Source: a virus. From it: 24,821 nt of DNA. Below, in pieces: positions 1,983-18,738 of this stretch. Under the pieces are notes generated by a model that was not told the origin of the DNA, ran no database searches, and saw nothing but the letters and a program-made list of their open reading frames with translations. The stretch is from positions 1-24,821 of the IMG/VR virus record IMGVR_UViG_3300030012_002814; one strand, 5' to 3'. Each line of letters starts with the position of its first letter. Within the stretch, counting starts at the first letter, position 1. The translations under genes and the position numbers were made by a program.

Positions 1983-2417
1983 TTAACTCGGTTTTGTTGG
2001 CCAAGTAATATTAAATGGATCGGATTGTGTTGTTATATCTCTCAAAGCTTGCCGATAGGTTTTCCAATCATCTGACAAGGTAAGATCACTACTTGCTCTC
2101 CAATCTGTATCTTGCAACTTAAGATCTCTTTCGCTTCTTACATTTACCCATTGTTGATTTGTAAGATCAGTTTGTTCATCTGAAGTTGTGGATTCTACCT
2201 TTACAGTATATACCTTACCACTATCAACATAAGCATCTACTGTAGTTAACTTTTGTGTTGGTCTTGTATAGGTAAGAGTCTGTACAAGTTCAACAACATT
2301 ATTTTCTGTTAAAAAATCTGCATTAGGGCCAGCAACACTAAAACTTGTATTAGGAAATAGTTTTTGGATAGTACCAGTGTTTTTTACAGTAGTACCATCA
2401 ATAATTGCGTATTTCAT
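1983..2417 (-). CDS. Probable tail-fibre assembly chaperone
   Basis: 144 aa. The C-terminal 50 residues carry the pattern of phage tail assembly chaperones (Phage_tail_APC-like): R.....KLQDTDWRASSDLTL (TDW near residue 104), then DDWKTYRQALRDIT and a final NITWPTKPS. Such proteins are not usually in the virion; they help fibre proteins fold or trimerise and are encoded just downstream of fibre genes, as here. The N-terminal half (IIDGTTVKNTGTIQKLFPNTSF) resembles the variable, substrate-specific part of these proteins. The start overlaps the preceding stop by one base (TAATG) and has GGAG about ten bases upstream, so coupled translation is likely. It may serve several of the fibre units to its right. 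Confidence 0.72.
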   Translation of the reverse strand: MKYAIIDGTTVKNTGTIQKLFPNTSFSVAGPNADFLTENNVVELVQTLTYTRPTQKLTTVDAYVDSGKVYTVKVESTTSDEQTDLTNQQWVNVRSERDLKLQDTDWRASSDLTLSDDWKTYRQALRDITTQSDPFNITWPTKPS

Positions 2418-2668
2418 TAAGTTGTCTCCAATTCGTTAATTTGGTCTATAATTACATCACGGATGATAATTGATTTTAATTGTTCAGTTATATGATTTTT
2501 AACCTCAGTGGTTAATCTATCACGAAACTCAATTAAGTCAGGATTATCTGCATATTGAGTATTAATTTTATCGATAGCGCGTGTGTAATTATCTATGTTA
2601 ATTTGATAATTTAGAATCTCATCATTGCGAGGTTTAAGAGCTTCTTGAAGAATTTGAAGTTTGTTCAT
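2417..2668 (-). CDS. Small helical/coiled-coil hypothetical protein
   Basis: 83 aa, rich in Ile, Leu, Asn, Asp and Lys with heptad-like spacing (INIDNYTRAIDKI; later LKSIIIRDVIIDQINELE), so mostly alpha-helical and probably a coiled coil. It starts 17 bases after the 343-aa tip gene and its stop overlaps the chaperone start by one base, which places it in the fibre operon. Short helical proteins next to fibre chaperones are common in T4-like marine phages and may be assembly helpers or connectors. No family recognised. Confidence 0.7.
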   Translation of the reverse strand: MNKLQILQEALKPRNDEILNYQINIDNYTRAIDKINTQYADNPDLIEFRDRLTTEVKNHITEQLKSIIIRDVIIDQINELETT

Positions 2669-2685
2669 AACAGATGTTAATAAAA

Positions 2686-3717
2686 TTAAGCAGCAGGACT
2701 AAAGGCAACTCCCCTAACAGAGTTTGGCGGCATGGTTGAGGGATCTGCGTACTTAGTACCAAATCCTGAGCCTGAAGTCCAAGGATACACAGTAATAACT
2801 GGGTTACTATCATTTCCTATGGCTATGTTTGCTCCGTCAGGACTAAAGTCAACTGACCATCCATTGTACGTTACGGTTGAAGGATCTGAATACTTAGTCC
2901 CAAAACCTGAATTCCAAGGATATACAGTAACTTGAGGAGTGTTATCACGTCCTAAGGCTATATCTGATCCATCAGGACTGAAGGCAACACCAGCGCCATC
3001 ATATCCTGGCAAGGTTGAGGGATCTGAGTACTTAGCACCAAATCCTGAGCCTGAAGTCCAAGAATACGCACTAATGAAAGGAGAATTATAATGTCCCATG
3101 GCTATATCTGATCCATCAGGACTAAAGGCAACTCCCCTAGTCCTGCCTGGTGGTAAGGTTGAAGGATTTGAATACCTAGTACCAATACCTGTATTGAAAT
3201 CAAAAGGATACACATTAATGTAAGGATGATAAACGCTTCCTACGGCCACGGCTGTTCCATCAGGACTCCAGGCAATACCAAATCCACTGGACGGCAAGCT
3301 TGAAGGATCTGAATATTTAGTGCCAAAACCTGAAGACGACCACTTATATACAACAAGTCCGTAACTATTATACTGTGCTACTCCTAAGGCTGTTCCAGCA
3401 GGATTAAAGGAAATACCGAGGCAATTTCCTATTGGTGTGGTTGTGGGATCTGCGTACTTAGAACCAAATCCTGAGCCTATAGTCCAAGAATAAGCACTAA
3501 CATAAGGAGAATTAACGTGTGCTATGGCTAAAGTTGTTCCATCAGGACTAAAGTCAACATCAATGCCACTGCCTGCTATCAAGGTTGAGGGGTCTGAGTA
3601 CTTAGAAACAAAACCTGAAGAGAACTTATATACAGTAATGAAAGGAGAATCATAATGTGCTGTGGCTAAGTCAATAGCACTATCACCAGCAGCAGCACGA
3701 AGATGGTGTGATCTCAT
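2686..3717 (-). CDS. Seven-bladed WD40-like beta-propeller, putative fibre tip
   Basis: 343 aa made almost wholly of seven repeats of about 45-48 residues. The repeat pattern is (V/I).FSPDG..IA.G...SP.I.VY.W..GFG.KY.DPSTLP. The chain starts within a blade (SAIDLATAH...) and ends with the strand RGVAFSPAA, which completes the first blade: a classic velcro closure of a seven-bladed propeller. Blades are close to each other in sequence, implying recent internal duplication. No signal peptide. The ATG overlaps the stop of the 492-aa shaft gene (ATGA), with GGAG seven bases upstream, so the pair is co-translated. Likely an adhesin carried by the neighbouring shaft. The fold call is firm, the receptor-binding role is inference. 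Confidence 0.8.
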   Translation of the reverse strand: MRSHHLRAAAGDSAIDLATAHYDSPFITVYKFSSGFVSKYSDPSTLIAGSGIDVDFSPDGTTLAIAHVNSPYVSAYSWTIGSGFGSKYADPTTTPIGNCLGISFNPAGTALGVAQYNSYGLVVYKWSSSGFGTKYSDPSSLPSSGFGIAWSPDGTAVAVGSVYHPYINVYPFDFNTGIGTRYSNPSTLPPGRTRGVAFSPDGSDIAMGHYNSPFISAYSWTSGSGFGAKYSDPSTLPGYDGAGVAFSPDGSDIALGRDNTPQVTVYPWNSGFGTKYSDPSTVTYNGWSVDFSPDGANIAIGNDSNPVITVYPWTSGSGFGTKYADPSTMPPNSVRGVAFSPAA

Positions 3718-5192
3718 CCTAAATCTCCAATAGTTGCACCATATAATGTGCTTCCTACTTTAAATAATTCTATCGCTGTGGGTGTTGCACCTCCTAAAGT
3801 AGGAGCAGACCCACCCTTCCATGTCATTGTCGGCCAAGTCAAAGTATAACTTGATCCAGTTGATGTAACTATAAGAAGCATTGATTGACCAGTGGTTAAA
3901 CTATCAGTTGCAGTTCTATTTGCTCCGAGTGTCCATGTTTGAACCATTCCATTATCAGGATCTAAAGCAACAGATGATGCATCAGTGATAGCAAATACAG
4001 TTTCAGTTATTGAATCTTCAACATTAACTGGATTTCTAAATGTTGCAATACCAGCAACATCTAATATGCCTGTTCTTACGTTTGCAGTATTAATACCAGT
4101 AGTATTAGAAATATCACCGACAAAACTCGTAGCAGTGACGATGCCCGTAAAAAATCCGTCTCCATCAGAACTTAAGGTGATACCACTTCCAACTTTAATG
4201 CCAGATCTCGCAGTAATAAGGCCAACCGAGTCAACATTGGTTACATCCTCATAGGTTAATGTTCCGCCAATTGATACATTACCAGCAGCAGTTACAGTAT
4301 TGACTGATATATCATCTGATGATGTTAATACGACACTACCCTGTCTCCCATAAAATGCGGTCACGCCTGGTGGTGTTGATGCACCAGCGAGTCCGATATG
4401 TCTCACCTGTATCACGACGCCAGCATCAGGAGCAGTCGTAAATACCAACTGTGATCCAGCAGCACTATAAGATCTCGTTGCTGTTGATGAATGTGGATAT
4501 TGAACTACACCATCAAGAGTGACTATAACATCATTACTCGTAGGTGGTACTTGTGATAAATTAAACGTTGTTGAACTTCCATCACCAGTAAATTCATCAA
4601 TTACATTATTTTCAGTTTCAAAAACTCTGGCATGTTCTCCAATAAATGTACCAAAGACCTTATCTGTAGCTACGAGTGCTGTGCTGAATACAATTGTGGA
4701 GTCTGATTCAATACTATAATCAACAGCTGGATTTTGTATTACACCATTCACTGATAAACTCAATTGTGCAGAGCGAGTTATCTTTGATTTTGTTCCATTA
4801 GTATGAGTTGCTTTGAATTTTGTATTTGTTCCATCAAACTTAACATTTAACGTATGAGATGAACCAACACCAAGACCTGTTAAATTAATCGCAGTTCCGC
4901 TTGATGCGTCTGATGCAGTGTTTGCTAGTTTAATTGTGGTTTGATCTTCTTTGATTATAAAATAAAAAGATCCATCCGTTAATCCTGTGATAGCCGTTCC
5001 ACCACCATCCGAATATGTTACTTTCTGTCCTGTTATAAATCGATGTTGTCCAACTGAAAGTGTATCATTAGCAACAGATACAACATCGGAACTGGATGCA
5101 TCAAAAGTTAAAGTAAATGTCGAAATATCGTCAAGAACTTTAAAAGTATTTGTTGAGTCACCGACTACAGGTTGATTACCGAGATACGCCAT
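3714..5192 (-). CDS. Tail fibre shaft protein with TYEDV module
   Basis: 492 aa, low-charge, Ser/Thr/Gly/Val-rich beta-structural protein typical of trimeric phage fibres. Residues about 1-270 hold two or three repeated beta-domains (FDGTNTKFKATHTNG...LSLSVNGVIQNP; then DGSSTTFNLSQVPPTSND..VTLDGVVQYP). A central shaft follows with TYEDVTNVDSVGLITAR, GSGITLSSDGDGFFTG, GIVTATSFVGD and NVRTGILDVAGIATFRN blocks. A C-terminal domain (NGMVQTWTLG...SYTLTWPTMTWKGG) probably caps the shaft or docks the tip. Preceded by an exact TATAAATA late box 13 bases before the ATG and followed by an overlapping propeller gene. The two form the last shaft/tip unit of the array. Confidence 0.8.
   Translation of the reverse strand: MAYLGNQPVVGDSTNTFKVLDDISTFTLTFDASSSDVVSVANDTLSVGQHRFITGQKVTYSDGGGTAITGLTDGSFYFIIKEDQTTIKLANTASDASSGTAINLTGLGVGSSHTLNVKFDGTNTKFKATHTNGTKSKITRSAQLSLSVNGVIQNPAVDYSIESDSTIVFSTALVATDKVFGTFIGEHARVFETENNVIDEFTGDGSSTTFNLSQVPPTSNDVIVTLDGVVQYPHSSTATRSYSAAGSQLVFTTAPDAGVVIQVRHIGLAGASTPPGVTAFYGRQGSVVLTSSDDISVNTVTAAGNVSIGGTLTYEDVTNVDSVGLITARSGIKVGSGITLSSDGDGFFTGIVTATSFVGDISNTTGINTANVRTGILDVAGIATFRNPVNVEDSITETVFAITDASSVALDPDNGMVQTWTLGANRTATDSLTTGQSMLLIVTSTGSSYTLTWPTMTWKGGSAPTLGGATPTAIELFKVGSTLYGATIGDLG
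4158..4268 (-). repeat. TYEDV fibre-module repeat, copy in the 492-aa shaft
   Basis: Encodes GGTLTYEDV...ITARSGIKVGSGITLSSDGD. One of five dispersed copies, strongly similar in both DNA and protein, in the five shaft genes. The reading frame is the same in all. Confidence 0.85.
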
Positions 5193-5205
5193 TTATCTTT
5201 TTAGT

Positions 5206-5213
5206 TATTTATA
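5206..5213 (-). promoter_or_regulatory. T4-type late promoter box (TATAAATA)
   Basis: Exact match to the T4 late consensus recognised by the phage late sigma system, 13 bases before the ATG of the 492-aa shaft gene. The following leader (ACTAAAAAGATAA) is nearly identical to those at 7480-7493 and 9687-9700. Confidence 0.75.
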
Positions 5214-5229
5214 TTATATGTTCATAAGT

Positions 5230-6624
5230 TTAACTTACAAAAGTTTTTACCACGTTTGTAGTTGGAGTTGCGCTAGTGTATGATCCTGTTCCACTTGACC
5301 ACGGGGGATTTGAGTGATCTGTGTAAGGAGTGAAATTGATAACGGATGCTTCTGTTTCATTCGATTCAGTGAACGAGCTAGCCGCATAAGTAAAATCTCC
5401 ATGTGTACCAGTTAATGATCCATCAACAGGAAGTTTAAAAACTATGGTCTCTCTAATGTTATAACCATAACCGAACTGGTTTTGGGGTGAGTTTGATTGA
5501 AAAGTAAGATAGTAAGATCCATCATTATCAACTTCTATTCCATTTCCAAAATTATATTCATAACCCGCCCCACCAAGTTCACGTTGCCATTGAAGAGTTC
5601 CTGAAGAGTTCCATTTAGCAATTATCAACTTTTGACCAGCTTCGGTTCCTTGATTATCCATGCCCAACCCATAAGCATTACCCGAACTATCCACCGCCAC
5701 TCCACCTGAAATAGCACTTGCTGTTCCACCTATTCTTCGCGCCCATTGAAAAACTCCATTGGCTGCAAATTTGGCAACAACCATTTCAGTTAAGTTTTTA
5801 GATGAAGAATATAGAGTAGTACCGATAAAGAAATCGCCAGAGTGTCCTGGCGCCACTCTTATTTGAATATTACGACTTGAACCACCAGGCCCTCCATCAC
5901 TACTTGGTGTACCATATGCATACGCATTTAAACGACTACCATTGTGATCATATTTCACAATACCGTAAGAATTCCCGCTCATGCTACCACCAGAGGGTGT
6001 TCCATAGAACATATAACCTATATAAACGTTGTTATAAGCGTGTTCAAATCTCACATCTGGCCCAAAACCAGCTGCTGAAGATAAAGGCATCAGCCTTCTG
6101 TGCCATTGAAAAGTTCCAGAACTATCATATTTTACTAAGAACGTACCCTGACCATAAGATTCTACACCAATATAAACATTACCTGAAGTATCTACATCAA
6201 CCCCAAAACCTGTGTCTTGATAAGAAGAATTATCATATTTGCGTTGCCATTGAAGAGTTCCTGAAGAATTGTATTTAACAAGCACAGCTGCATATGCACC
6301 AGTGTATATATCAACTCCAACACCATAAACATTACCTGAAATGTCTACTGCTACTGCATTCATCTCTTTAAAACTAAGTTCTCTTGACCATTGATGAACT
6401 CCCTTATTATCAAACTTAACAATGAATCCAGTCTGGTAATAACTACCAGAAATATAAACATTACCCGAAGAGTCTATAGCTGCACACTGATGAGTCTCAT
6501 CATAAACGCCGTTATAGGTAGTATCCAGAGTATTAACCTTCAAATACCAAAAATTTCCCTGCGGCTTAGTGCCAATTAATGACCCCGCTCCACCTAATCC
6601 AGATACTCCTAAAAATGGTGACAT
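5230..6624 (-). CDS. SBBP-type seven-bladed beta-propeller, putative fibre tip
   Basis: 464 aa. From residue about 40 to 380 it consists of propeller repeats with the SBBP signature: DSSGNVYISG, then I(V)KFD..G..QW.R.L, with QW-R motifs in five blades (QWSREL, QWQRKY, QWHRRL, QWARRI, QWQREL). About seven blades can be counted. The N-terminal 30 residues are Gly-rich (SPFLGVSGLGGAGSL). The C-terminal tail (GDFTYAASSFTESN onward) lies outside the repeats and is shared with the 467-aa paralogue. Starts two bases after the stop of the 200-aa shaft gene without an obvious Shine-Dalgarno sequence, so it probably depends on translational coupling. Paralogous to the 467-aa and 513-aa genes. Likely receptor-binding; substrate unknown. 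Confidence 0.78.
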   Translation of the reverse strand: MSPFLGVSGLGGAGSLIGTKPQGNFWYLKVNTLDTTYNGVYDETHQCAAIDSSGNVYISGSYYQTGFIVKFDNKGVHQWSRELSFKEMNAVAVDISGNVYGVGVDIYTGAYAAVLVKYNSSGTLQWQRKYDNSSYQDTGFGVDVDTSGNVYIGVESYGQGTFLVKYDSSGTFQWHRRLMPLSSAAGFGPDVRFEHAYNNVYIGYMFYGTPSGGSMSGNSYGIVKYDHNGSRLNAYAYGTPSSDGGPGGSSRNIQIRVAPGHSGDFFIGTTLYSSSKNLTEMVVAKFAANGVFQWARRIGGTASAISGGVAVDSSGNAYGLGMDNQGTEAGQKLIIAKWNSSGTLQWQRELGGAGYEYNFGNGIEVDNDGSYYLTFQSNSPQNQFGYGYNIRETIVFKLPVDGSLTGTHGDFTYAASSFTESNETEASVINFTPYTDHSNPPWSSGTGSYTSATPTTNVVKTFVS

Positions 6625-6626
6625 GA

Positions 6627-7229
6627 TTATGCGTAATTAACAAGATTTGAAAGAACAACGTATGTTGCATCGGCAGTTTTTATAATATTATGATTATAAA
6701 CATCATACCCACTATCACCGCCTGCTGATGGAGTAGAAGCACCCAACCATTCCTCTGTGACTGCACTACCATCAATTGTCAATTGTGCTGAGTATCCCGC
6801 TGCAGCAGCAGTCACAATTATCACTACAGTGACCGCTTCTCCAATACCCATCTTAGAATTTAATGAGGTTGATCCATCAATTCTTATATTTGGTGTGGAT
6901 GTGGTTGTCTCTGTGGTTGTGAAGAGATGAACCATTCCATTTGAAAGATCTATATTTGTATTATCACTTAACTTACCAGCAGTTATATTAACACCCTCCC
7001 TTAAAAGACTTGAAAAATCTACACCTGATCTCGCAGTTATAATACCAACTGAATCTACATTGGTTACGTCTTCATAGGTTAACGTGCCACCAATTGAAAT
7101 ATTACCAGAGGCGCTAATATCTACGACATTAACAATATTGTTGCCCTGCAAATTTAAATTATCAGTGGATGATAATTCTTCGATCTGTCGTGTGCTTGAA
7201 TTTGCTATGAGTGGAAATCTATCTGCCAT
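6627..7229 (-). CDS. Short tail fibre shaft/adaptor with TYEDV module
   Basis: 200 aa, the shortest of the five shaft proteins. An N-terminal section (MADRFPLIANSSTRQIEEL, then NLNLQGNNIVNV) leads into the TYEDVTNVDSVGIITARSG block (about residues 52-70). A globular C-terminal domain follows, with NGMVHLFTTTETTTSTPNI, GIGEAVTVVIIVTAAAAGYS, and an ending of YNHNIIKTADATYVVLSN. That C-terminal domain is shared with the 250-aa shaft and, more distantly, the 264-aa shaft, all of which precede SBBP propellers. A late box lies 19 bases upstream and GAGAGG is in the leader. The stop is two bases before the 464-aa tip. Confidence 0.78.
   Translation of the reverse strand: MADRFPLIANSSTRQIEELSSTDNLNLQGNNIVNVVDISASGNISIGGTLTYEDVTNVDSVGIITARSGVDFSSLLREGVNITAGKLSDNTNIDLSNGMVHLFTTTETTTSTPNIRIDGSTSLNSKMGIGEAVTVVIIVTAAAAGYSAQLTIDGSAVTEEWLGASTPSAGGDSGYDVYNHNIIKTADATYVVLSNLVNYA
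7023..7091 (-). repeat. TYEDV fibre-module repeat, short copy in the 200-aa shaft
   Basis: Encodes GGTLTYEDV...IITARSG only; the following GSGITLSSDGD half seen in the other four copies is missing. Confidence 0.8.
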
Positions 7230-7248
7230 GTTATTTTATACCTCTCTG

Positions 7249-7256
7249 TATTTATT
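7249..7256 (-). promoter_or_regulatory. T4-type late promoter box (AATAAATA)
   Basis: AATAAATA, 19 bases before the ATG of the 200-aa shaft gene, overlapping the stop of the 74-aa gene. The leader contains GAGAGG as a ribosome-binding site. Confidence 0.6.
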
Positions 7257-7479
7257 ATAGATCAATAGCAACATCACTGCCAGCTCTATTGACCACATTA
7301 AAAGATGAACCAGACACACTAAAAGTAACCGCTGCTCCAGATCTTACACCTAAAGTTAATGTAGGAGCACCACCTAAAACAGTGCCATCTGACTTTATAA
7401 AGCTCGTCGCAGTGATAATTCCAATTTTGACATTTGTGGTGGTTTTTATACCTACCCCTGCAAGTTTAGTAATTGACAT
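7255..7479 (-). CDS. Mini fibre-like structural protein
   Basis: 74 aa. The start (MSITKLAGVGIKTTTNVKIG) resembles the first residues of the 250-aa shaft (MALTKVTGQVINTSTDVTVG), and GIITATSFIKSDGT is a standard fibre-shaft phrase of this locus. The rest (GAPTLTLGVRSGAAVTFSV...) is short beta-structure. It has its own late box 14 bases upstream with the same leader as two full shaft genes. It may be a small collar or connector, or a shaft gene cut down by recombination between modules that stayed in frame. It looks intact, so I annotate it as a gene. Confidence 0.65.
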   Translation of the reverse strand: MSITKLAGVGIKTTTNVKIGIITATSFIKSDGTVLGGAPTLTLGVRSGAAVTFSVSGSSFNVVNRAGSDVAIDL

Positions 7480-7493
7480 TTATCTTTTTTAGT

Positions 7494-7501
7494 TATTTAT
7501 T
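7494..7501 (-). promoter_or_regulatory. T4-type late promoter box (AATAAATA)
   Basis: AATAAATA with upstream TAT, 14 bases before the ATG of the 74-aa gene. The leader ACTAAAAAAGATAA is identical to the one before the 250-aa shaft gene. Confidence 0.65.
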
Positions 7502-7520
7502 ATAAGTGTGAGATTTAATA

Positions 7521-8924
7521 TTAGTCAAAGTAAGTAAGCTCACTGAAAGTGGGATTAAAAGCGGTATCTCCATACGCTGAGGTGTGAGCACTTTCAGAAA
7601 AAGATGTGGTGGTCTCAGTTGGCCCAACTGAAGTGCTGCTAGAAACAGAGATATTTGAGAAAACACCTCTAGGTGAGTCGAGATAAGAAGATGCAGCGTA
7701 AGTAAAATCTCCGTAAGTGCCTGTTAATGATCCATCAACAGGAAGTTTAACAATCATACAATGTCTTGGAGTATTAGCACCACCAATTGGCGTGGTGGTT
7801 TGAACTGCGAAATAAAAACTACCTGAGTCATCGACCTTTATTGCAGGGCCACTTGTGAATTCGTTACCTGTCCCACTAAAAGTGCGTTGCCACTGAAGAA
7901 CTCCCGAAGAGTTAAGTTTGAGAAGTATTACATTAAAACTGTCATTGTATCCTATCACATAACAATTACCTGAGCTATCTGTAGCTATTCCTCTAACATA
8001 TTCTGCGTTTGATGTTGAACCTATGATTCGGCACCATTGTTCAGATCCCAGATAGTTGTACCTAGTAACCAAGATATCTTGACCACCACCATGAGCATCA
8101 GCACCATGAACAGATGCAGCGACAAAAACATCATTTCCGTATGTAGCACAGTCAAAATTTCTATAAGTCATAGTGCCTGCGCCGTTGTTGCCTCTTATTA
8201 ATCTTGACCAAAAATGACCCCCACTGCTTTGAGTAATCACTCCAATGTAAATATTTCCACTTCCTGTTGGTTGATATGTTAAACCAGTAACATATACTCT
8301 ATTTCCTCCACCTTCAGCATCCATACTATGTACAGTGTCAAGATAAGTGCCTGTTTGCAACCTTTTTTGCCACTGAAGAGTTCCTGAAGAATTCCATTTA
8401 GCAAAAAACATGGGATCGCCGCTTCCACCGTAATCCTCTTTACCACCGAGATAAACATTACTACCACCATCTATAGTTAGACAATAATTTGTATGATCAT
8501 GACTGCCTGTAGTATTACCTAGTTGGCGTTCCCATTGTATAACTCCCGAAGAATTATATTTCATAACAAAAAACCAATATCCATAATGGTAAATACTTCC
8601 AGCAACATAAACATTATGAGAAGAATCTACTTCTATTCCATAAAATTCTATTGAGCTAGTATTATACTCTTTTCCCCATTGAAGAGCTCCCTTACTATTA
8701 AATTTTAAAACGAAACCCGCGCTAGTGTCTTTTTTACCACAAACATAAAGATTACCTGAAGAGTCCAACTGAATATCATAAGGTTGTGGATAACCGCCAC
8801 CAGTTGGAAAAGTAAAATAAAAATGATTACCAACACCAGCACCACCAAGACCAAGTGAAGTAGCACCACCACCAAGACCAGTTAATGATAAAGGTTTTTC
8901 ATATATTGAATTTCTTAGTGACAT
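7521..8924 (-). CDS. SBBP-type seven-bladed beta-propeller, putative fibre tip
   Basis: 467 aa, paralogue of the 464-aa protein. Repeats of the form DSSGN.YV.G...F..K.NSSG.LQW.R begin near residue 45, with W motifs QWGKEY, QWERQL, QWQKRL, FWSRLI, QWCRII and QWQRTF. A seventh blade (MIVKLPVDGSLTG) makes a seven-bladed ring. The Gly-rich N-terminus (LGGGATSLGLGGAGVG) probably docks on the shaft, and the tail GDFTYAASSYLDSPRG onward is shared at its start with the 464-aa protein and then diverges. Starts nine bases after the 250-aa shaft stop with no clear Shine-Dalgarno sequence. Divergent loops on a conserved scaffold fit a receptor-binding role, which is inferred. Confidence 0.78.
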   Translation of the reverse strand: MSLRNSIYEKPLSLTGLGGGATSLGLGGAGVGNHFYFTFPTGGGYPQPYDIQLDSSGNLYVCGKKDTSAGFVLKFNSKGALQWGKEYNTSSIEFYGIEVDSSHNVYVAGSIYHYGYWFFVMKYNSSGVIQWERQLGNTTGSHDHTNYCLTIDGGSNVYLGGKEDYGGSGDPMFFAKWNSSGTLQWQKRLQTGTYLDTVHSMDAEGGGNRVYVTGLTYQPTGSGNIYIGVITQSSGGHFWSRLIRGNNGAGTMTYRNFDCATYGNDVFVAASVHGADAHGGGQDILVTRYNYLGSEQWCRIIGSTSNAEYVRGIATDSSGNCYVIGYNDSFNVILLKLNSSGVLQWQRTFSGTGNEFTSGPAIKVDDSGSFYFAVQTTTPIGGANTPRHCMIVKLPVDGSLTGTYGDFTYAASSYLDSPRGVFSNISVSSSTSVGPTETTTSFSESAHTSAYGDTAFNPTFSELTYFD

Positions 8925-8933
8925 TTTAAATTA

Positions 8934-9686
8934 TTATGATGATGTTTTACTTTGATTTGCAATCACAGTAAATGTTGCATTAGCAGTTTTAATAATTGTA
9001 TAAGCGTGAATGTCAACTCCACTCGAACCACCGTCTGACGGTGCATCTCCTCCCACCCAATTTTCTGTAACTGAAGCACCATCGATTGTTAACTGTGCAG
9101 AGTAACCACCAGCAGCTGCAGTGGTGATAATCGTTACCGCTATAGACTCTCCAATTTGCATAACATCATTAAGAGTAACAGAACTACTAAATCTGATATT
9201 TGGAGTGGATGTGGTCGTTTCCTGTGTTGTAAAGTAGTGAACCATTCCATTTTCTAAATCAATATTTGTATTATCACTCAACTTACCAGCAGTTATATTA
9301 ACACCCTCTCTTAATAAACCAGAAAGATCTATTCCACTCGCAGTCACTGATGTAACAGTGCCTACTCCAGTCACTGATGTTGCAGTTACGATGCCTGTAT
9401 GAAATGCATTTCCATCAGGACTTAAAGTGATTCCTGATCCAACAAGAACGTTACCATTGAATGTAGAAACACCGACAGCAAACACATCTCCATCAGAACT
9501 TAAAGTTATGCCACTTCCAACTACAATTCCATTTCTTGCCGTGATAAGACCAACTGAATCTATATTAGTTACATCCTCGTAAGTTAATGTACCACCAACA
9601 GAAAGATTGTTCGTGACTGTAAGCACACCAACCGTAACATCCGTGCTGGTGTTTATAACTTGACCTGTAACTTTGGTGAGCGCCAT
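8934..9686 (-). CDS. Tail fibre shaft protein with TYEDV module
   Basis: 250 aa. After a short N-terminus (MALTKVTGQVINTST) come the TYEDVTNIDSVGLITARNG block, then two copies of a GSGITLS.DG(D/N).F unit separated by VGVSTFNGNVLV, and GIVTATSVTGVG. The C-terminal domain (about residues 135-250: NGMVHYFTTQETTTST, QIGESIAVTIITTAAAGG, SQLTIDGASVTENW-like segment, TIIKTANATFTVIAN) is clearly homologous to the C-terminus of the 200-aa shaft. The late box lies 14 bases upstream, inside the end of the 62-aa gene. Its partner tip is the 467-aa propeller. Confidence 0.8.
   Translation of the reverse strand: MALTKVTGQVINTSTDVTVGVLTVTNNLSVGGTLTYEDVTNIDSVGLITARNGIVVGSGITLSSDGDVFAVGVSTFNGNVLVGSGITLSPDGNAFHTGIVTATSVTGVGTVTSVTASGIDLSGLLREGVNITAGKLSDNTNIDLENGMVHYFTTQETTTSTPNIRFSSSVTLNDVMQIGESIAVTIITTAAAGGYSAQLTIDGASVTENWVGGDAPSDGGSSGVDIHAYTIIKTANATFTVIANQSKTSS
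9486..9596 (-). repeat. TYEDV fibre-module repeat, copy in the 250-aa shaft
   Basis: Full-length copy encoding GGTLTYEDV...ITARNGIVVGSGITLSSDGD. At DNA level it is closest to the copy in the 264-aa shaft (12055-12165), with long runs of identical bases around the ARNGIVVGSG part. Confidence 0.85.
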
Positions 9687-9700
9687 TTATCTTTTTTAGT

Positions 9701-9708
9701 TATTTATT
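9701..9708 (-). promoter_or_regulatory. T4-type late promoter box (AATAAATA)
   Basis: AATAAATA 14 bases before the ATG of the 250-aa shaft gene, overlapping the stop codon of the 62-aa gene. Followed by the shared leader ACTAAAAAAGATAA. Confidence 0.65.
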
Positions 9709-9892
9709 CGGAAACTACTTCGGATCCTGTAAATCCACCTTTTTTCCTTGACGCATCTATTATTGTTTCTTCAAAAGCATCGGTTTCAGAAGTAAAAGTT
9801 TTCTTTTTGGATATGTCATCAGACCAAACGTTCGTACCTGTCCAGTAGACTACTTTTCCAGATAATCCTTGTTTTTTAACGTAGTAAGCCAT
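9704..9892 (-). CDS. Small conserved phage protein (MAYYVKKQG type)
   Basis: 62 aa: MAYYVKKQGLSGKVVYWTG, NVWSDDISKKKTF, and an ending of KKGGFTGSEVVSE. I recall near-identical short proteins in marine T4-like phages, always without an assigned function. The aromatic N-terminus (YYV..VVYWTG..VWSD) suggests a small compact beta-domain. It has its own exact TATAAATA box 14 bases upstream and its stop overlaps the next late box. It sits between two shaft/tip units, so a small virion or assembly component is plausible. Confidence 0.75.
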   Translation of the reverse strand: MAYYVKKQGLSGKVVYWTGTNVWSDDISKKKTFTSETDAFEETIIDASRKKGGFTGSEVVSE

Positions 9893-9906
9893 TTTTATTT
9901 TTTAGT

Positions 9907-9914
9907 TATTTATA
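9907..9914 (-). promoter_or_regulatory. T4-type late promoter box (TATAAATA)
   Basis: Exact T4 late consensus 14 bases before the ATG of the 62-aa gene, followed by ACTAAAAAATAAAA, a close variant of the leader shared by three other genes here. Confidence 0.75.
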
Positions 9915-9937
9915 TTACATGTCCACGATTTTTATTA

Positions 9938-11479
9938 TCATGGGTTGCCTGGGTTCCAACTTACTGTTGCAGTATTCATACCTCCATGATTTGCTACAGT
10001 TAAAGATGGAGTATCATCAGTGTATCCAGTCCAAGGATCGCTGATAACTGACATACTTCTAGACTGGAATGTAGGAAAACCTGCAGCATTATGTGTAAGG
10101 GGATCCTGATTGTAGTATGGGCCGCCAGAGGAAAATGAATACTTATAATTAGAATTCCCACTATCATAAACACCATTAATCAATTCTGGATCCAGTTTCC
10201 ATATTGCAACATCGAAATCCGAACTTGGTGCAAGAAAATTTTTCCCTTCACCTAAAACATATATTCTTCCTCTGGAATCAGTATGCACTCCTCGAAGGTA
10301 GGCGTGACCTTGTGAACCACTCCATGTTGATCCTGTACTTTTATAAAATATTGAAGCCCGTGTATATTCGGTTCCTCCAGCACCAACACCAGTGCTGGTA
10401 GGAATTTGTACAATATGTCCTTGACCTGTAGAATTGCTAGCACCATGAAGATACGTATATGTTTGAAATAAATCACCACTATTAGATATGGATAATCCAG
10501 TGGTCGCAACAGTTCGAGCGTTATATCCAATTTTACGCGCCCAAGTAAGAGATCCACTATCAGACAACTTAACAATGAGTGATTGCGTATCGTTATAATG
10601 ACTCCCATAGAGTCCTCCAAGATAGATATTACCTGAACTATCAGATACTACATTTTTAGTGCAATGATACCCGCTGCTGTAACTATATGATTCAGAGTTT
10701 ATGGCCATATAATTGTATTGATCCCCAATACCTTTTGTCCATCTATGAGTTCCATCCAAATCATATCTAATAGCCATAAGGTCATTAGTATGGTTGTAAC
10801 TCCCGAAGGATTCGTAATAGTTTGAAGCATCGCCAGACACAACAATTCCAGCTGAATAACTACTACTAGCAGGAACATATGTGATCGACTGTCCTTTTAA
10901 AAGTCCGCTAGATGGGGTGTTAAAATATATTTTTCTCGTCCACTGAAGACTTCCAGAACTATTATATTTTACAGTTACTACCTGAGATGTAACATTAGAA
11001 TTCGCAGTAGACCAACCAGTAACGTAAACATTACCCGAAGGATCAGTTGTTACATCTCTAAAGTGTGTGGTGTTACCTGTAGAAAAACGTTTTTGCCACT
11101 GAAGAGTTCCAGACTCATTCCATTTTCCGATCCAACCACCACTACTATATGTTCCTATCATATACACATCAGTGCCACTGGTCGCTATGCTAGTTCGACC
11201 TTCACCGTAAACATCATGTACCCTACGTGTCCATTGATGAGCTCCATCATTATCAAATTTAACAAGATACGCAACGGAAGAGTTGGCACTAGTGGCTACA
11301 AAAATATTGCGAGAAGAATCTAAATCAATCGCAGAGCCAAAATCCATAAAATAGCCTGCACCACTATTATTATACTGTGCATACCAAGGATCTCCATCTG
11401 GTGGCAAACCACCCTGAAAGCCACCAGCAAGACTCGGCAGAGTTATGATAGGACTTTCTTTCTTATGATGATCTTTCAT
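9938..11479 (-). CDS. SBBP-type beta-propeller, putative fibre tip
   Basis: 513 aa, the largest and most divergent of the three SBBP paralogues. Blades carry the LVKFD.DG.HQWTRRV pattern, with W motifs QWTRRV, QWQKRF, QWTRKI, RWTKGI and TWARKI. Two irregular blades follow (around RASIFYKSTGSTW and DVAIWKLDPELING). The N-terminus differs from the others (MKDHHKKESPIITLPSLAGG), and the C-terminal 70 residues (YSFSSGGPYYNQDPLTHNAA to TATVSWNPGNP) are unique. The ATG overlaps the 264-aa shaft stop by one base (TAATG), so the pair is translationally coupled. No late box lies directly before the pair; it seems to be read from the promoter before the 318-aa gene. Confidence 0.76.
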   Translation of the reverse strand: MKDHHKKESPIITLPSLAGGFQGGLPPDGDPWYAQYNNSGAGYFMDFGSAIDLDSSRNIFVATSANSSVAYLVKFDNDGAHQWTRRVHDVYGEGRTSIATSGTDVYMIGTYSSGGWIGKWNESGTLQWQKRFSTGNTTHFRDVTTDPSGNVYVTGWSTANSNVTSQVVTVKYNSSGSLQWTRKIYFNTPSSGLLKGQSITYVPASSSYSAGIVVSGDASNYYESFGSYNHTNDLMAIRYDLDGTHRWTKGIGDQYNYMAINSESYSYSSGYHCTKNVVSDSSGNIYLGGLYGSHYNDTQSLIVKLSDSGSLTWARKIGYNARTVATTGLSISNSGDLFQTYTYLHGASNSTGQGHIVQIPTSTGVGAGGTEYTRASIFYKSTGSTWSGSQGHAYLRGVHTDSRGRIYVLGEGKNFLAPSSDFDVAIWKLDPELINGVYDSGNSNYKYSFSSGGPYYNQDPLTHNAAGFPTFQSRSMSVISDPWTGYTDDTPSLTVANHGGMNTATVSWNPGNP

Positions 11480-12273
11480 TATGCAAAGTTAGTAAAATTA
11501 CCAAAAACTGAATAAGTATTTGCAGCGGTCTTTAAAATTGTCAGTGAATATAAATCTACTCCACTTCCAGTGGCAGCAGATGGTGTCGTTGCATTAGCAT
11601 ATTTAATAGTTTGAGCGGAACCATCAATTTGAAAAGCAGTCATATAATTTGATGCGTTATTATTTGCAGAATATATTGTCATTGTCGTAACCTTTCCAAT
11701 ACCTATCAAACTATCAAACGTGGTACTTGCGTCTCCTCTAAGATTAATCACAAAAGAACCACCAGCATTTGTTGATCCATTCCAAACCATTCCGTATGTA
11801 AGAGCATCGTGATTATGAGTGCCTGAAACGGCGCTGGTATCATTGTGAAATGCTTCTTGTAGAACGCCACCACCAAAACTAGCTGAAGAAGAACTAAATG
11901 TGATTCCTGATCCAACAAGAACATTTGATCTAAACGTTGCAATACCAGCAACATCTAGATTTCCTGTTCTTACGTTTGCAGTAACAGCAATACCAGTAAG
12001 TGCAGAACCATCACCAGCATAACTTGTAGCAGTAACAACTCCTGTAAAGAATCCATCACCATCAGAACTTAGAGTTATGCCACTTCCAACTACAATTCCA
12101 TTTCTTGCCGTGATGAGACCAACCGAATCAATATTCGTTACATCCTCATAAGTTAGTGTACCAGCAACCGAAACATTACCACCAAAAGATCCATCACCGA
12201 CAACACTTAATCCACTTATTGTAATCGTTTCTGTTGAACCAATACCAGCAGCATTGATTTTTGTAAATGACAT
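11479..12273 (-). CDS. Tail fibre shaft protein with TYEDV module
   Basis: 264 aa. It begins MSFTKINAAGIGSTET, then VAGTLTYEDVTNIDSVGL-ITARNG, GSGITLSSDGDGFFTG, VVTATSYAGDGSALTGI, and NVRTGNLDVAGIATFRSNV. The C-terminal domain (from about residue 135: VLQEAFHNDTSAVSGTHNHD, YGMVWNGSTNAGG, SLIGIGKVTTMTI, LTILKTAANTYSVFGNFTN) aligns loosely with those of the 200- and 250-aa shafts. The His-containing THNHD stretch is specific to this copy. The start follows the 110-aa stop by one base (TAAgATG) with GGAG upstream. Confidence 0.78.
   Translation of the reverse strand: MSFTKINAAGIGSTETITISGLSVVGDGSFGGNVSVAGTLTYEDVTNIDSVGLITARNGIVVGSGITLSSDGDGFFTGVVTATSYAGDGSALTGIAVTANVRTGNLDVAGIATFRSNVLVGSGITFSSSSASFGGGVLQEAFHNDTSAVSGTHNHDALTYGMVWNGSTNAGGSFVINLRGDASTTFDSLIGIGKVTTMTIYSANNNASNYMTAFQIDGSAQTIKYANATTPSAATGSGVDLYSLTILKTAANTYSVFGNFTNFA
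12055..12165 (-). repeat. TYEDV fibre-module repeat, copy in the 264-aa shaft
   Basis: Full-length copy (AGTLTYEDV...ITARNGIVVGSGITLSSDGD), nearly the same in DNA as the copy at 9486-9596. Confidence 0.85.
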
Positions 12274-12274
12274 C

Positions 12275-12607
12275 TTATGTGATCTCCATAATTGTTAGGG
12301 CAGCATCAACACTATCATTTGTGTCGCTATTTACGTTTATTTGATCATTCGTTTCAAGAACAACTTTATTTCCTCCCATAAATTCAAGGGATGAACCATG
12401 TGGAATTGGAGCATTTTTTAACAAATTAACATCCTCTTTCGTTGTTGATGTTCTTGAGACTGCAACACCCACATTAACACCAGATCCAGATGTATTTGCA
12501 AGGGTGATACCAATCACAACAGTCGTTGTTGAAGAGGGAGCAGTATATATTCCAACTGTGGTTACTCCCACATTAGCTTTTGTTTTTAATTTAAAGGTGT
12601 TTGCCAT
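12275..12607 (-). CDS. Small conserved virion-type protein
   Basis: 110 aa beta-rich protein: MANTFKLKTKANVGVTTVGI, YTAPSSTTTVVIGITLANTS, then VNVGVAVSRTSTTKEDVNLL, PIPHGSSLEFMGGNKVVLE. I recall similar short proteins in fibre regions of marine T4-like phages, without known function. The alternating hydrophobic strands and the PIP.G.SLE turn suggest a small beta-sandwich. It lies between the 318-aa and 264-aa genes, seven and one bases from its neighbours, so it belongs to the same transcript. AGGA lies about ten bases before the ATG. A minor virion or fibre-attachment role is inferred from context only. Confidence 0.72.
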   Translation of the reverse strand: MANTFKLKTKANVGVTTVGIYTAPSSTTTVVIGITLANTSGSGVNVGVAVSRTSTTKEDVNLLKNAPIPHGSSLEFMGGNKVVLETNDQINVNSDTNDSVDAALTIMEIT

Positions 12608-12614
12608 TGTTTGT

Positions 12615-13571
12615 TTATCCTAAAGCGATTGCGAGAGCGGTTGCATCAGCGGCGGTTGCGCCAGTTTCTAATGGAGATCCGTTCACAAGAAGTGAACCTG
12701 TGGTATTTATGTCACCGTCCACATCTAACGTAAATGCAGGGCCGACTGAATTAATACCAACTCTTGTTGTTGGTATTCCAATGACCTTGACCATTGTTCC
12801 AGCAAGACCCACATTCAATAGATTCGTGGTTGTCATACCAGAGACAAAGGAGTTTGATGCACTAGAAAATCCAATCGTTGCAATCCCTGATATGACTGAA
12901 TTTCCTGAGATGGTTGCACTGTTAACGTTTAAATCACCACCACTGAAGGCTAGACTACCATTAACATCAACATCACCATTGAAATAAGCATTCCCAGTTA
13001 CAGTCAATGCACCACCGACTGTTGATGCACCACTAACATTAATATCACTACTTAAAATTGCAGGGCCACCGATTGTTGTTGCACCACCGACATTTAAGTT
13101 TCCACCAACCTCCAGATCATTCTCAAATCTTGAATTATCTACAATCTTTGCACCACCTGTAACCGTGAGTGCAGCACCAACAGTCAAAGCTGCACCAACA
13201 TTTAAGTCTTTTGTGATCGTTGCACCGATTGATACTGTCAAATCAGTTGCAGTCAATGACTGAACTGTTGAAAAACCTGTTGTAACGTTTAATGATGTGG
13301 CGTTTGCCTTTCCAAGTGTTGAGAATCCACTTACAACTGCATCAGTCGTGGTCATTGTGGTTACGCCAACCGCACCAGCAGTGACGATACCAACAAATTT
13401 ACCCACAAAACTCTCGACTTGACTATCCGATAGTATTTTACCACGAACATCAAGAGTCGCAGTCGGCACTGTTGTGCCAATCGCGACTCGATTATTTGCA
13501 GAATCGACAAAGAGAGTATTAGTATCGACCTCTAAGCCGTTCTTGACTACAAAATTTTTATTTACTGCCAT
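12615..13571 (-). CDS. Repetitive tail fibre/shaft protein
   Basis: 318 aa. It opens with MAVNKNFVVKNGLEVDTNTL, then DSANNRVAIGTTVPTATLDV, a head common to phage fibres that carry GIGTT.P...LDV repeats. The body is a long run of short beta repeats (LNVGAALTVGAALTVTGGAK, LEVGGNLNVGGATTIGG, ALTVTGNAYFNGDVDVNGSL), as in triple beta-helix or trimeric shafts. A second IG..PTTRVGINSVGP...LDV unit is near residue 265, and the end is Ala/Thr-rich. It has no TYEDV module and no overlapping tip gene. Start supported by GGAGAG in the leader and a CTAAATA late box. The lead gene of the transcript that also carries the 110-, 264- and 513-aa genes. Confidence 0.78.
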   Translation of the reverse strand: MAVNKNFVVKNGLEVDTNTLFVDSANNRVAIGTTVPTATLDVRGKILSDSQVESFVGKFVGIVTAGAVGVTTMTTTDAVVSGFSTLGKANATSLNVTTGFSTVQSLTATDLTVSIGATITKDLNVGAALTVGAALTVTGGAKIVDNSRFENDLEVGGNLNVGGATTIGGPAILSSDINVSGASTVGGALTVTGNAYFNGDVDVNGSLAFSGGDLNVNSATISGNSVISGIATIGFSSASNSFVSGMTTTNLLNVGLAGTMVKVIGIPTTRVGINSVGPAFTLDVDGDINTTGSLLVNGSPLETGATAADATALAIALG

Positions 13572-13590
13572 TGGGTTTCACTCTCCACCC
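13572..13590 (-). promoter_or_regulatory. Repeated 5' leader with ribosome-binding site in a hairpin loop
   Basis: The 19 bases directly before the ATG, GGGTGGAGAGTGAAACCCA on the minus strand, are identical to those before the 399-aa gene at 15347-15365. GGGT can pair with ACCC, leaving the Shine-Dalgarno GGAGAG in a ten-base loop. The stem is only four pairs, so a regulatory role is uncertain; the exact repetition is certain. Confidence 0.5.
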
Positions 13591-13602
13591 TATTTTTTTA
13601 AT

Positions 13603-13609
13603 TATTTAG
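13603..13609 (-). promoter_or_regulatory. T4-like late promoter box (CTAAATA)
   Basis: CTAAATA on the minus strand, 31 bases before the 318-aa start and just before the repeated leader. The same variant box occurs at 16699-16705. Confidence 0.5.
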
Positions 13610-13610
13610 T

Positions 13611-13634
13611 TTAATTAAATTGTTGAATAGTCAT
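13611..13634 (-). pseudogene. Remnant of a second copy of the 170-aa gene start
   Basis: Immediately after the stop of the 170-aa gene comes ATGACTATTCAACAA, the exact first five codons (MTIQQ) of that same gene, then TTT AAT and a stop. The 16-base match (13620-13635 and 14133-14148) is spaced exactly one gene length apart (513 bases). This looks like a scar of a tandem duplication or cassette exchange; the eight-codon reading frame itself is unlikely to matter. Confidence 0.6.
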
Positions 13635-14147
13635 TTAAACAACATAACCTGTAAAACCCAATCCCATATATTGACCTCCCTGACTACATCCACCATTGAA
13701 GCCACCCCAATTTCCATTCGATAATAAAGGTCTAATCTGTGTATAACTACAGGCACAAGAATTGGTTCCACCAACTACAAAAGTTGGAGAGTTATTTCCA
13801 CCTCTAACAAAATCGTATCCACCAGTTCCAGATCCACAATTCCAACCCAAATACCAATTATCAGTCGCACCAGTACCATAATTACTACCAGAAGCTAGAG
13901 CAGTTCGTAATCCATTAATATAATTAGCATCACTAATGTAGTATGTGCCATAAGCACTAAAACTCATTGTCATCTGTGTTACATTATTAGAGTTTTCAAA
14001 ATTAGTAAGCCACTGCACATACGCTGCCGCTGGTGTACTGGTAGCTCCACTACCACTGAATAATCCATAGAAACTGTATGTGCCATATGTGCCTTGAGGA
14101 GCATCTCCATCACCAGCAGCTGCTAAAATCATTTGTTGAATAGTCAT
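13635..14147 (-). CDS. Small Cys/Gly/Trp-rich putative fibre tip
   Basis: 170 aa. Starts MTIQQMILAAAGDGDAPQGT. The middle has FYGLFSGSG and AAYVQWLTNFENSNN. The C-terminal half is Gly/Asn/Trp-rich with Cys at 104, 131, 133 and 154 (GWNCGSGTGGYDF, SCACSYTQIRPLLSNGNWGG, GCSQGGQYMGLGFTG). The short, aromatic and Gly-rich, Cys-bearing C-terminus fits a compact distal domain at a fibre end; the cysteines could form disulfides or hold a metal. The ATG overlaps the 399-aa shaft stop (TAATG), so it is the tip partner of that shaft and the only non-propeller tip of the five. No family recognised with confidence. Confidence 0.72.
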   Translation of the reverse strand: MTIQQMILAAAGDGDAPQGTYGTYSFYGLFSGSGATSTPAAAYVQWLTNFENSNNVTQMTMSFSAYGTYYISDANYINGLRTALASGSNYGTGATDNWYLGWNCGSGTGGYDFVRGGNNSPTFVVGGTNSCACSYTQIRPLLSNGNWGGFNGGCSQGGQYMGLGFTGYVV

Positions 14148-15346
14148 TATTCTAACCCAGCTCCAGCACCATAGACAATACTAGCACTAACAAATATAAA
14201 CGTACATACTCCTCTTGCTTTTAACGTTAATGATGATTTAGTGCTCGTATCGTTAGCGAGATATGTGGTTATTGCACTACAGGTAATTGTTCGATCAGTG
14301 CCACTATTATTGATAATTGTAATAGCATCACCAGTTGAAAAAGTGCTGGCGGGAATTGTTACGTTATAAGGACAAGTAACATGTTTCCCTGCATCAGCAG
14401 CGACAAGTGTGTAAGTTGAAAGTTGAGAGTTTTGAGGAATACTTCTTACATTTCCTTTTGTATCACTAATATTTGAAGTTGCTGTAATATTTCCTGTAAC
14501 ATCAACACCGCCTAATGCATCAAGATTTCCAGTAAACGTAGAAACACCAACTGTGAATACGTCTCCATCAGGACTTAATGTGATTCCGCTTCCAACTACA
14601 ATTCCATTTCTTGCGGTAATCAGTCCAACTGAATCAACATTTGTTACGTCTTCATAAGTTAGTGTTCCACCAATAGATACAGTTCCAGCGATTGATACAT
14701 CACTACTAAAAGATGCTGTTGTTGCAATGATATTATCTCTGAACGTTGCAATACCAGCGACATCTAATATACCTGTTCTGACGTTTTCAGTTCCACCAAT
14801 ACCAGTGAGTGCAGAACCATCACCAGCAAAACTTGTAGCGGTAACAACACCAGCGACATTTAGAGTGCTGGCGTTTATATCAGCGGTATTTGCGATACCA
14901 GTTAACGCAGAACCATCACCAGCAAATGAGGTTGCACTGATAGTTCCACCATAATTACCAAAACTAGAGTTCAGTTTTGTAGCATCTATTGAACCACTAG
15001 TTATTTTATTTGCACTAACTGTTCCATCAACCAACGTTGATCCATTGATCGTTCCAGCTGAGGGTGTTCCAACATTGACACGAGAGCCCATTGCAAGAAT
15101 GAACACTTCTGCTTCTATTGCTGGTGCGGTTGTAAAAGTAATTTGACTGTCATCAACTGTATATGCGATTCCAGATTCCTGTATCACACCAGCGAGTGAT
15201 ACTAAAAGAGCATTCGCAGCTCCTGGCGAATATGCTTGACCAGTCGCCTTTAAATCAAAAGTTGTTTGTGATCCATCAAACTGTGATTGTATGCTATCCA
15301 GTTTAATAAATTCGCCTTGTGTTAATTGTCTTCCTATGTACGCCAT
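14147..15346 (-). CDS. Tail fibre shaft protein with TYEDV module
   Basis: 399 aa. N-terminal beta-domain (MAYIGRQLTQGEFIKLDSIQ, FDGSQTTFDLKATGQ, ALLVSLAGVIQESG, TFTTAP-like segment), similar in type to the domains of the 492-aa shaft. Linker GTINGSTLVDGTVSANKI, then three GDGSALTG-type blocks, NVRTGILDVAGIATFRDN, the full TYEDVTNVDSVGLITAR module and GSGITLSPDGDVFTVGVSTF. The C-terminal domain (VTCPYNVTIPASTFSTGD, AITIINNSGTDRTITC, LKARGVCTFIFV...GAGAGLE) differs from those preceding propellers, in line with its different tip. Preceded by a CATAAATA late box and the repeated GGAGAG leader. Confidence 0.8.
   Translation of the reverse strand: MAYIGRQLTQGEFIKLDSIQSQFDGSQTTFDLKATGQAYSPGAANALLVSLAGVIQESGIAYTVDDSQITFTTAPAIEAEVFILAMGSRVNVGTPSAGTINGSTLVDGTVSANKITSGSIDATKLNSSFGNYGGTISATSFAGDGSALTGIANTADINASTLNVAGVVTATSFAGDGSALTGIGGTENVRTGILDVAGIATFRDNIIATTASFSSDVSIAGTVSIGGTLTYEDVTNVDSVGLITARNGIVVGSGITLSPDGDVFTVGVSTFTGNLDALGGVDVTGNITATSNISDTKGNVRSIPQNSQLSTYTLVAADAGKHVTCPYNVTIPASTFSTGDAITIINNSGTDRTITCSAITTYLANDTSTKSSLTLKARGVCTFIFVSASIVYGAGAGLE
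14561..14671 (-). repeat. TYEDV fibre-module repeat, copy in the 399-aa shaft
   Basis: Full-length copy encoding GGTLTYEDV...ITARNGIVVGSGITLSPDGD, the rightmost of five. Confidence 0.85.
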
Positions 15347-15365
15347 TGGGTTTCACTCTCCACCC
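15347..15365 (-). promoter_or_regulatory. Repeated 5' leader with ribosome-binding site in a hairpin loop
   Basis: Second exact copy of the 19-base leader at 13572-13590, again abutting an ATG-GC start. GGAGAG is the ribosome-binding site and GGGT/ACCC can enclose it. Confidence 0.5.
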
Positions 15366-15374
15366 TTTTCTTTA

Positions 15375-15382
15375 TATTTATG
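15375..15382 (-). promoter_or_regulatory. T4-type late promoter box (CATAAATA)
   Basis: CATAAATA on the minus strand, 28 bases before the 399-aa start, between the stop of the 431-aa gene and the repeated leader. Confidence 0.55.
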
Positions 15383-15385
15383 TGA

Positions 15386-16681: not shown

Positions 16682-16698
16682 TTTTAAGCGTTTTTATA

Positions 16699-16705
16699 TA
16701 TTTAG
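16699..16705 (-). promoter_or_regulatory. T4-like late promoter box (CTAAATA)
   Basis: CTAAATA on the minus strand overlaps the stop codon of the protease gene and lies 17 bases before the 431-aa start. Confidence 0.5.
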
Positions 16706-18735: not shown

Positions 18736-18738
18736 TTT

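Follow-up and report, generated by a model that had tools for sequence, protein, structure and literature searches.

Five shaft and tip gene pairs in a marine T4-like phage probably encode modular tail fibers with plug-in adhesins

Analysis of the virus record IMGVR_UViG_3300030012_002814, whose 24,821 bases are referred to here as the window, revealed an array of five gene pairs, all on the minus strand, each consisting of a fiber-like shaft gene and a gene for a putative adhesin tip directly behind it. Shafts (S) and tips (T) are named by their lengths in residues; the N-terminal sequence of a shaft is termed its slot, the C-terminal domain its connector, and the first ~10-30 residues of a tip its leader. 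The five pairs of the original prediction are all present with the lengths and junctions it gave, and the TYEDV module that it assigned to every shaft was found in 5/5.

The first pair is formed by S399 (14147-15346) and T170 (13635-14147), which overlap by 1 base. S399 has the slot MAYIGRQ, the TYEDV module and a class B C-terminal domain (~14147-14449, 105 bits), and T170 starts with the class B leader MTIQQMILAAAG (~14106-14147), which scores 16.1 bits compared to 2.0 bits for the next best class. In the second pair, S264 (11479-12273) combines the slot MSFTKINAAGIG with a class A domain (11479-11868) and overlaps by 1 base with T513 (9938-11479), composed of the class A leader KKESPIITLPSLAGG (~11390-11479) and an SBBP β-propeller. 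The third pair has a 9-base gap between S250 (8934-9686), with its class A domain at 8934-9332, and T467 (7521-8924), in which the class A leader occupies residues 1-31 (8832-8924) and an SBBP β-propeller begins at residue 35. Only 2 bases separate the members of the fourth pair, S200 (6627-7229; slot MADRFPL, class A domain at 6627-7019) and T464 (5230-6624), which carries the class A leader MSPFLGVSGLGG (~6565-6624) and again an SBBP β-propeller. The fifth pair, with a 4-base overlap, comprises S492 (3714-5192; slot MAYLGNQP, class C C-terminal domain at 3714-4025, 175 bits) and T343 (2686-3717), which displays the class C leader MRSHHLRAAAGD (~3682-3717, 29.7 bits) in front of a WD40-like β-propeller.

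The three class A shafts end in the same profile family, phrog_5906 (S264, 9.9e-21; S250, 1.2e-29; S200, 5.3e-33), and the C-termini of S399 and S492 are two other domains, which define classes B and C. The TYEDV module acts as the hinge that joins exchangeable ends, and the part that pairs with the tip is the shaft C-terminus, of which the window has three classes. The pairing claimed originally is real, with the class-specific C-termini as its pairing parts and the TYEDV module only as the hinge. That the copies of this module in the window were recently homogenized by gene conversion was considered and rejected, as the third bases at four-fold sites agree in 55/128. The class A domain of S250 was predicted by AlphaFold2 as a β-sandwich with a confidence (predicted local distance difference test, pLDDT) of ~95. 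Its closest structural matches are phage trimer proteins, namely the Pa223 capsid spike (Z 7.4), residues 79-180 of CBA120 TSP4 (Z 5.5) and T4 gp9 (Z 5.4), all of them only suggestive, since Z is below 8. TSP4, with its XD domains, and gp9, of the T4 gp9/gp10 baseplate domains, are trimeric phage connector proteins (PMC8825819); the class A domain differs from them in sharing no sequence family and in having the capsid spike as its best hit.

Pfam profile searches gave scores for PF06739 (SBBP) of 42.5, 45.8 and 52.5 bits for T513, T467 and T464, respectively, above the cut-off of 20.5. The WD40 score of T343 is marginal (27.7 bits against a cut-off of 27), and its WD40-like propeller is assigned by profile alone. 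T170 gave no convincing match in the Pfam and PHROG searches. The AlphaFold2 model of T467 (mean pLDDT 74, predicted template modeling score 0.82) is a β-propeller that begins at residue 35 and matches CylK, propeller enzymes and propeller lectins in Foldseek. Leader residues 1-31 are disordered (pLDDT ~27-36) and lie outside the propeller. The tip-protein search detected no relatives of T467 in IMG/VR.

Relatives of one shaft, of the tips and of the three C-terminal domain types were collected from IMG/VR, giving a comparison set of ~400 viral loci in which only the shaft itself was used to assign its class. The class A domain is situated no more than 7 residues from the C-terminus in 219/220 open reading frames (ORFs), and 211/214 class A shafts are followed by a gene of at least 100 residues starting at -4 to +25 nucleotides. 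An adjoining tip gene was also found behind 95/95 class C shafts, and an adjoining gene behind 57/57 class B-type hits, some of which also bear a class A end. As phage genes are dense, with 820/1097 (75%) of the other long ORFs in related loci also having a close neighbor, adjacency is weak evidence and was rejected as the sole evidence for pairing.

What exceeds chance is a class-specific leader in the first ~10-30 residues of the downstream protein. Class A leaders, K.xPLSLxGxGGG in short form, read KKExPILSxLGxGGG or MSPILGxxAGxSARGYGF (subclasses A1 and A2), the class B leader reads MTIQQMxLGxGG and the class C leader MRSHxLRAAAGG. The same leader is found whatever the tip body, across 236 nonredundant tips in 88 body families, and a near-invariant proline and the glycines are kept across most unrelated tips. 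By Pfam, 47/94 of the tip bodies are glycine-rich; the others include laminin G/concanavalin-like folds and RCC1, SBBP, WD40 and kelch repeats. Tips sharing a leader vary widely in gap (-4 to +25) and start context. As a side observation, the stop-to-start gap of class A pairs is in frame in 104/167 nonredundant pairs, more than the third expected, which probably reflects inherited spacing; stop-codon read-through was rejected as the less likely explanation, as many gaps contain a ribosome-binding site and class B and C pairs overlap out of frame.

The window pairs were scored with leader and shaft models built from the relatives only, with the window left out. All five tips were assigned to the class of their own shaft (5/5). 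In addition to T170 with its class B leader, T343 scored 29.7 bits for class C (next best 9.9), T467 40.2 and T464 21.8 bits for A1, and T513 25.8 bits for A1 and 22.2 for A2; no other window protein exceeded 5.7 bits for a leader. The shafts scored accordingly: S399 105 bits for class B, S492 175 for class C, S250 207 and S200 197 for A1, and S264 127 for A2 and 94 for A1. Each of the three class A shafts is nearest to a different subtype and has its own leader style. Among the five pairs, five distinguishable connectors may thus be in use.

With the tested tip family left out of training, leader models recovered the shaft class for 221/236 tips (93.6%); treating A1 and A2 as one class raised this to 97.0%. 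In the six tip families that were found with shafts of several classes, 74/84 leaders follow the shaft, compared to a permuted mean of 36.7 and a maximum of 53 in 10,000 permutations. Among 3,127 ORFs, leader matches lay directly behind a recognized shaft in 141/152 cases for A1, 114/126 for A2, 49/57 for B and 101/120 for C. Within every class, the similarity of shafts correlates with that of leaders for pairs with unrelated tips (Mantel r of 0.23 for A1, 0.55 for A2, 0.65 for B and 0.58 for C), each value exceeding all 999 permutations. At four-fold sites, the third bases of class A leaders agree about as often as expected at saturation (A1, 0.45 against 0.39; A2, 0.33 against 0.36). As their synonymous sites are near saturation while the proline and glycines stay constant, it is the leader protein that is conserved in class A.

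Comparison with the closest relative, IMGVR_UViG_3300026270_000013, which has the same flanking genes (g431, g318 and g110, at 97%) and five intact shaft and tip pairs, revealed exchanges behind fixed slots. Behind the slot MSFTKINAAGIG, the window carries a class A end with an A leader, the relative a B end with a B leader. Connector and leader are B/B in the window against A/A in the relative behind MAYIGRQ, and C/C against A/A behind MAYLGNQP. At these three slots, leader and tip change together with the connector class behind the same N-terminus; sequence identity stays high near the hinge and breaks down beyond it. Beside these exchanges, positions 21214-21879 of the relative encode a shaft with an S200-type N-terminus and a fourth C-terminus (FVTKTGDFRLG); the tip behind it has a related leader, and this C-terminus is probably a further connector class.

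Pairs are also present in the named phages P-SSM7, Syn30, S-CREM2, Roseobacter phages CRP-738 and CRP-1, S-B28, whose podovirus type rests on its Autographiviridae lineage, and S-CBS2, which we take to be a siphovirus, and the single-cell virus AG-345-E15 has one A/A and one B/B pair. The paired genes are 041/042 in P-SSM7, 00041/00040 in Syn30, gp115/116 in S-CREM2 and gp11/gp10 in S-B28. As some isolates give low leader scores and the annotation of CRP-738 leaves a gap of 57 bases, the isolate pairs are supportive rather than decisive. Shafts and tips kept at unlinked positions in related genomes had been named originally as one outcome that would speak against the pairing; instead, the pairs are linked in the IMG/VR contigs, the single-cell virus and the seven isolates.

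The genes flanking the array match tail genes of T4-like cyanophages, and the closest annotated match to the window is Marine virus AG-345-L05 (Kyanoviridae; 81% identity over 16545-18970). Apparently, the source is a marine virus of a cyanobacterial phage family. We propose, with a probability of roughly 80%, that the locus encodes, in a marine T4-like phage, five modular tail-fiber or fiber-like units, each with a plug-in adhesin specified by its own gene. The conserved slot would attach the shaft to the virion, and the shared hinge would join it to a connector of one of several classes. The tip, translated separately, would cap the fiber by docking its short leader on the matching shaft end, probably a trimer, and its body (β-propeller, lectin-like, glycine-rich or other) would presumably bind the host surface. 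Recombination may swap connector, leader and tip as one block while the slot stays, and also tip bodies behind a fixed leader, by which one genome could present five different tips on distinguishable connectors.

Several observations weigh against this proposal. T170 has no relatives in IMG/VR or among annotated phages, and the score of its leader is modest. To approximate co-folding, the C-domain of S250 was joined to the T467 leader in a construct that reads through the stop codons between the genes; in the AlphaFold2 model the leader stays disordered and unplaced, in a monomer that cannot show a trimer interface, and the model gave no significant Foldseek hit. Most errors of class recovery outside class A are distant B-type shafts with leaders of their own, which were misassigned. 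In class C, the leaders retain some similarity at the DNA level (0.67 observed against 0.41 expected), hence linkage contributes to their match. Leaders also adjoin the shaft in the DNA, and some of the shaft-leader correlation is accordingly due to linked inheritance.

Carried to its end, such linkage would make the leaders passive stretches of DNA homology, with breakpoints just inside the tip gene and the leader carried along with the shaft without a docking role. The position of the leader beside the shaft end and the synonymous sites shared by class C leaders agree with this explanation, yet class A and B leaders keep their amino acids with synonymous sites saturated or nearly so, the proline and glycines persist in most unrelated tips, and the T467 leader is modeled as disordered and outside the body. 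Passive linkage also leaves unexplained why breakpoints avoid the gene boundary itself, and we consider it unlikely.

An array of paralogous pairs in tandem could alternatively be a phase-variable or decaying reservoir, with a single pair in use at a time. Two short ORFs between the pairs, g74 (7255-7479, minus strand) and g62 (9704-9892, minus strand), resemble leftover pieces, and an invertase could lie elsewhere, as the window is a fragment. The relative contig has kept both ORFs; g74 is similar to the S250 N-terminus and is perhaps a leftover shaft slot. Against a reservoir, all pairs are intact and co-oriented, the closest relative also has intact pairs, and most pairs have their own copy of a late-promoter-like repeat. 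This repeat, ATAAATAACTAAAAA, precedes the S492/T343 pair (5198-5212) and recurs exactly at 7486-7500 (before g74 and S200), 9693-9707 (before S250) and 9899-9913 (before g62), all on the minus strand; no copy is expected by chance for the four found, and similar motifs occupy matching places in the relative contig. It has the look of a late promoter of the T4 type or of an anchor for recombination. A search of 2600-15450 for inverted repeats found one short palindrome and no inverted-repeat pair, and for this reason an inversion switch, by which one pair would be expressed at a time, one of the options named originally, gains no support. We regard use of a single pair as improbable; simultaneous use of all five plug-in adhesins is plausible, as the pairs are co-oriented, several share the repeat and the array has no inverted repeats.

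The downstream genes might also encode assembly chaperones, like T4 gp38 or Tfa, that dock by a conserved N-terminus and then leave. Chaperones commonly come after fiber genes and some are transient caps, as stated in part of PMC10579305, and T4 gp38 is itself a chaperone in the account excerpted from PMC12892980. A chaperone body, however, is expected to be conserved with its shaft, whereas 88 unrelated bodies occur behind the same connectors, and these are lectin-like, propeller or glycine-rich. Moreover, the Pfam and PHROG matches of the five tips include no chaperone family, and a separate tail-fiber-assembly gene (Phage_tail_APC, Tfa-like; 1983-2417, minus strand) already lies just downstream of the array, which together leave this explanation quite improbable. 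Least probable is that the leader is an element of the messenger RNA for translation or regulation (start region, coupling) instead of a protein motif: the junctions are tight, many overlapping by 1-4 bases, but class A amino acids are conserved with synonymous sites free, and shared leaders occur with gaps of -4 to +25 and differing start contexts.

The plug-in adhesins proposed here are best compared to gp37/gp38 of T2-type phages (T2, PP01 and S16), in which a separate tip gene likewise comes straight after the fiber gene, trimeric in the T2 type, and glycine-rich bodies are common. The comparison with T2 made in the original prediction is apt as a working analogy, with five units here, not one; neither gp37 nor gp38 appears among the Pfam or PHROG hits of the ten array proteins. 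The tip N-terminus is matched to the fiber end in both systems, here statistically from sequence. In the passages of PMC12892980 concerned, T2 gp37 does not accept PP01 gp38 unless the first 113 residues of the latter are exchanged for the T2 sequence. Compared to those ~113 residues, the leader here has ~10-30, and the fragment has five units, at least three shaft classes with matching leaders, and many unrelated body folds including propellers.

Klebsiella phages of the KP32, KP34, Menlow and PhiK64-1 groups carry a conserved, group-specific N-terminal peptide of at least 7 residues, proposed in the relevant portion of PMC6872550 to attach a second receptor-binding protein. In both cases, a short conserved N-terminal peptide would dock a receptor-binding protein on the docking domain of another protein; there, however, the dock is the N-terminal T4gp10-like branching domain of the first spike, whereas here it would be the extreme C-terminus of the shaft, with exchange of tips inside a single genome array. 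Looked at for a T4gp10-like dock, the class A C-domain resembles gp9 and TSP4 domains at no more than Z 5.4-5.5. Tail adhesin genes that are hypervariable and determine host range are also described for haloarchaeal hafunavirus tail-fiber adhesins (PMC8651126) and marine metaviromic islands (PMC3909814), in the passages concerned with neither a class-matched leader nor a multi-unit array. Separate tips (T2 gp38), N-terminal compatibility of tip and fiber (PMC12892980) and short N-terminal docking peptides for branching domains (PMC6872550) are already known from the parts of these sources considered; in the open-access literature, we found no description of class-matched leaders common to unrelated marine tips.

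Other features of the neighborhood are as follows. The 22-base element GGGTGGAGAGTGAAACCCAATG lies on the minus strand at the start of S399 (15344-15365), with an identical copy at the start of g318 (13569-13590), and the relative has it at these two genes as well. For the GGGTGGAGAGTGAAACCC element, a surrounding hairpin was rejected, being not better than shuffles. A subtilase gene (Peptidase_S8, 3.7e-18; 16702-18735, minus strand) is located between a large tail-fiber gene and a baseplate/fiber-connector-like gene, with 81% DNA identity kept in AG-345-L05. A 509-residue ORF (124-1653, minus strand) matches PADLOC NsnA weakly (3e-8), in addition to two PHROGs of unknown function, and its C-terminus is HNH-nuclease-like as judged by eye. 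In AG-345-L05 (MH319755, 1-10068), helicase-like and DNA-methyltransferase-like genes come after the g431 homologue, without a shaft and tip array there; in AG-345-E15, genes of this kind follow the array. Some AG-345 records served solely as context from single-cell viruses.

Beyond the window, it is an evenly balanced question whether marine phages that infect cyanobacteria and roseobacters, among them myo-, podo- and siphoviruses, have general connector classes in common, in which a leader of ~10-30 residues is recognized solely by the matching shaft C-domain. If so, one virion could take up several different tips and keep them unmixed, and phages could trade tip genes, whatever the fold, by gaining the right leader, which would explain the free swapping of host-binding tips among these phages. 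Most receptor-binding proteins of marine phages are unannotated, appearing as "hypothetical protein" or "sericin 1 precursor-like". The match of leader and connector would find tip genes in uncultured phage genomes from sequence and assign each to its shaft, and it offers a mechanism for the fast exchange of host-recognition modules in the ocean.

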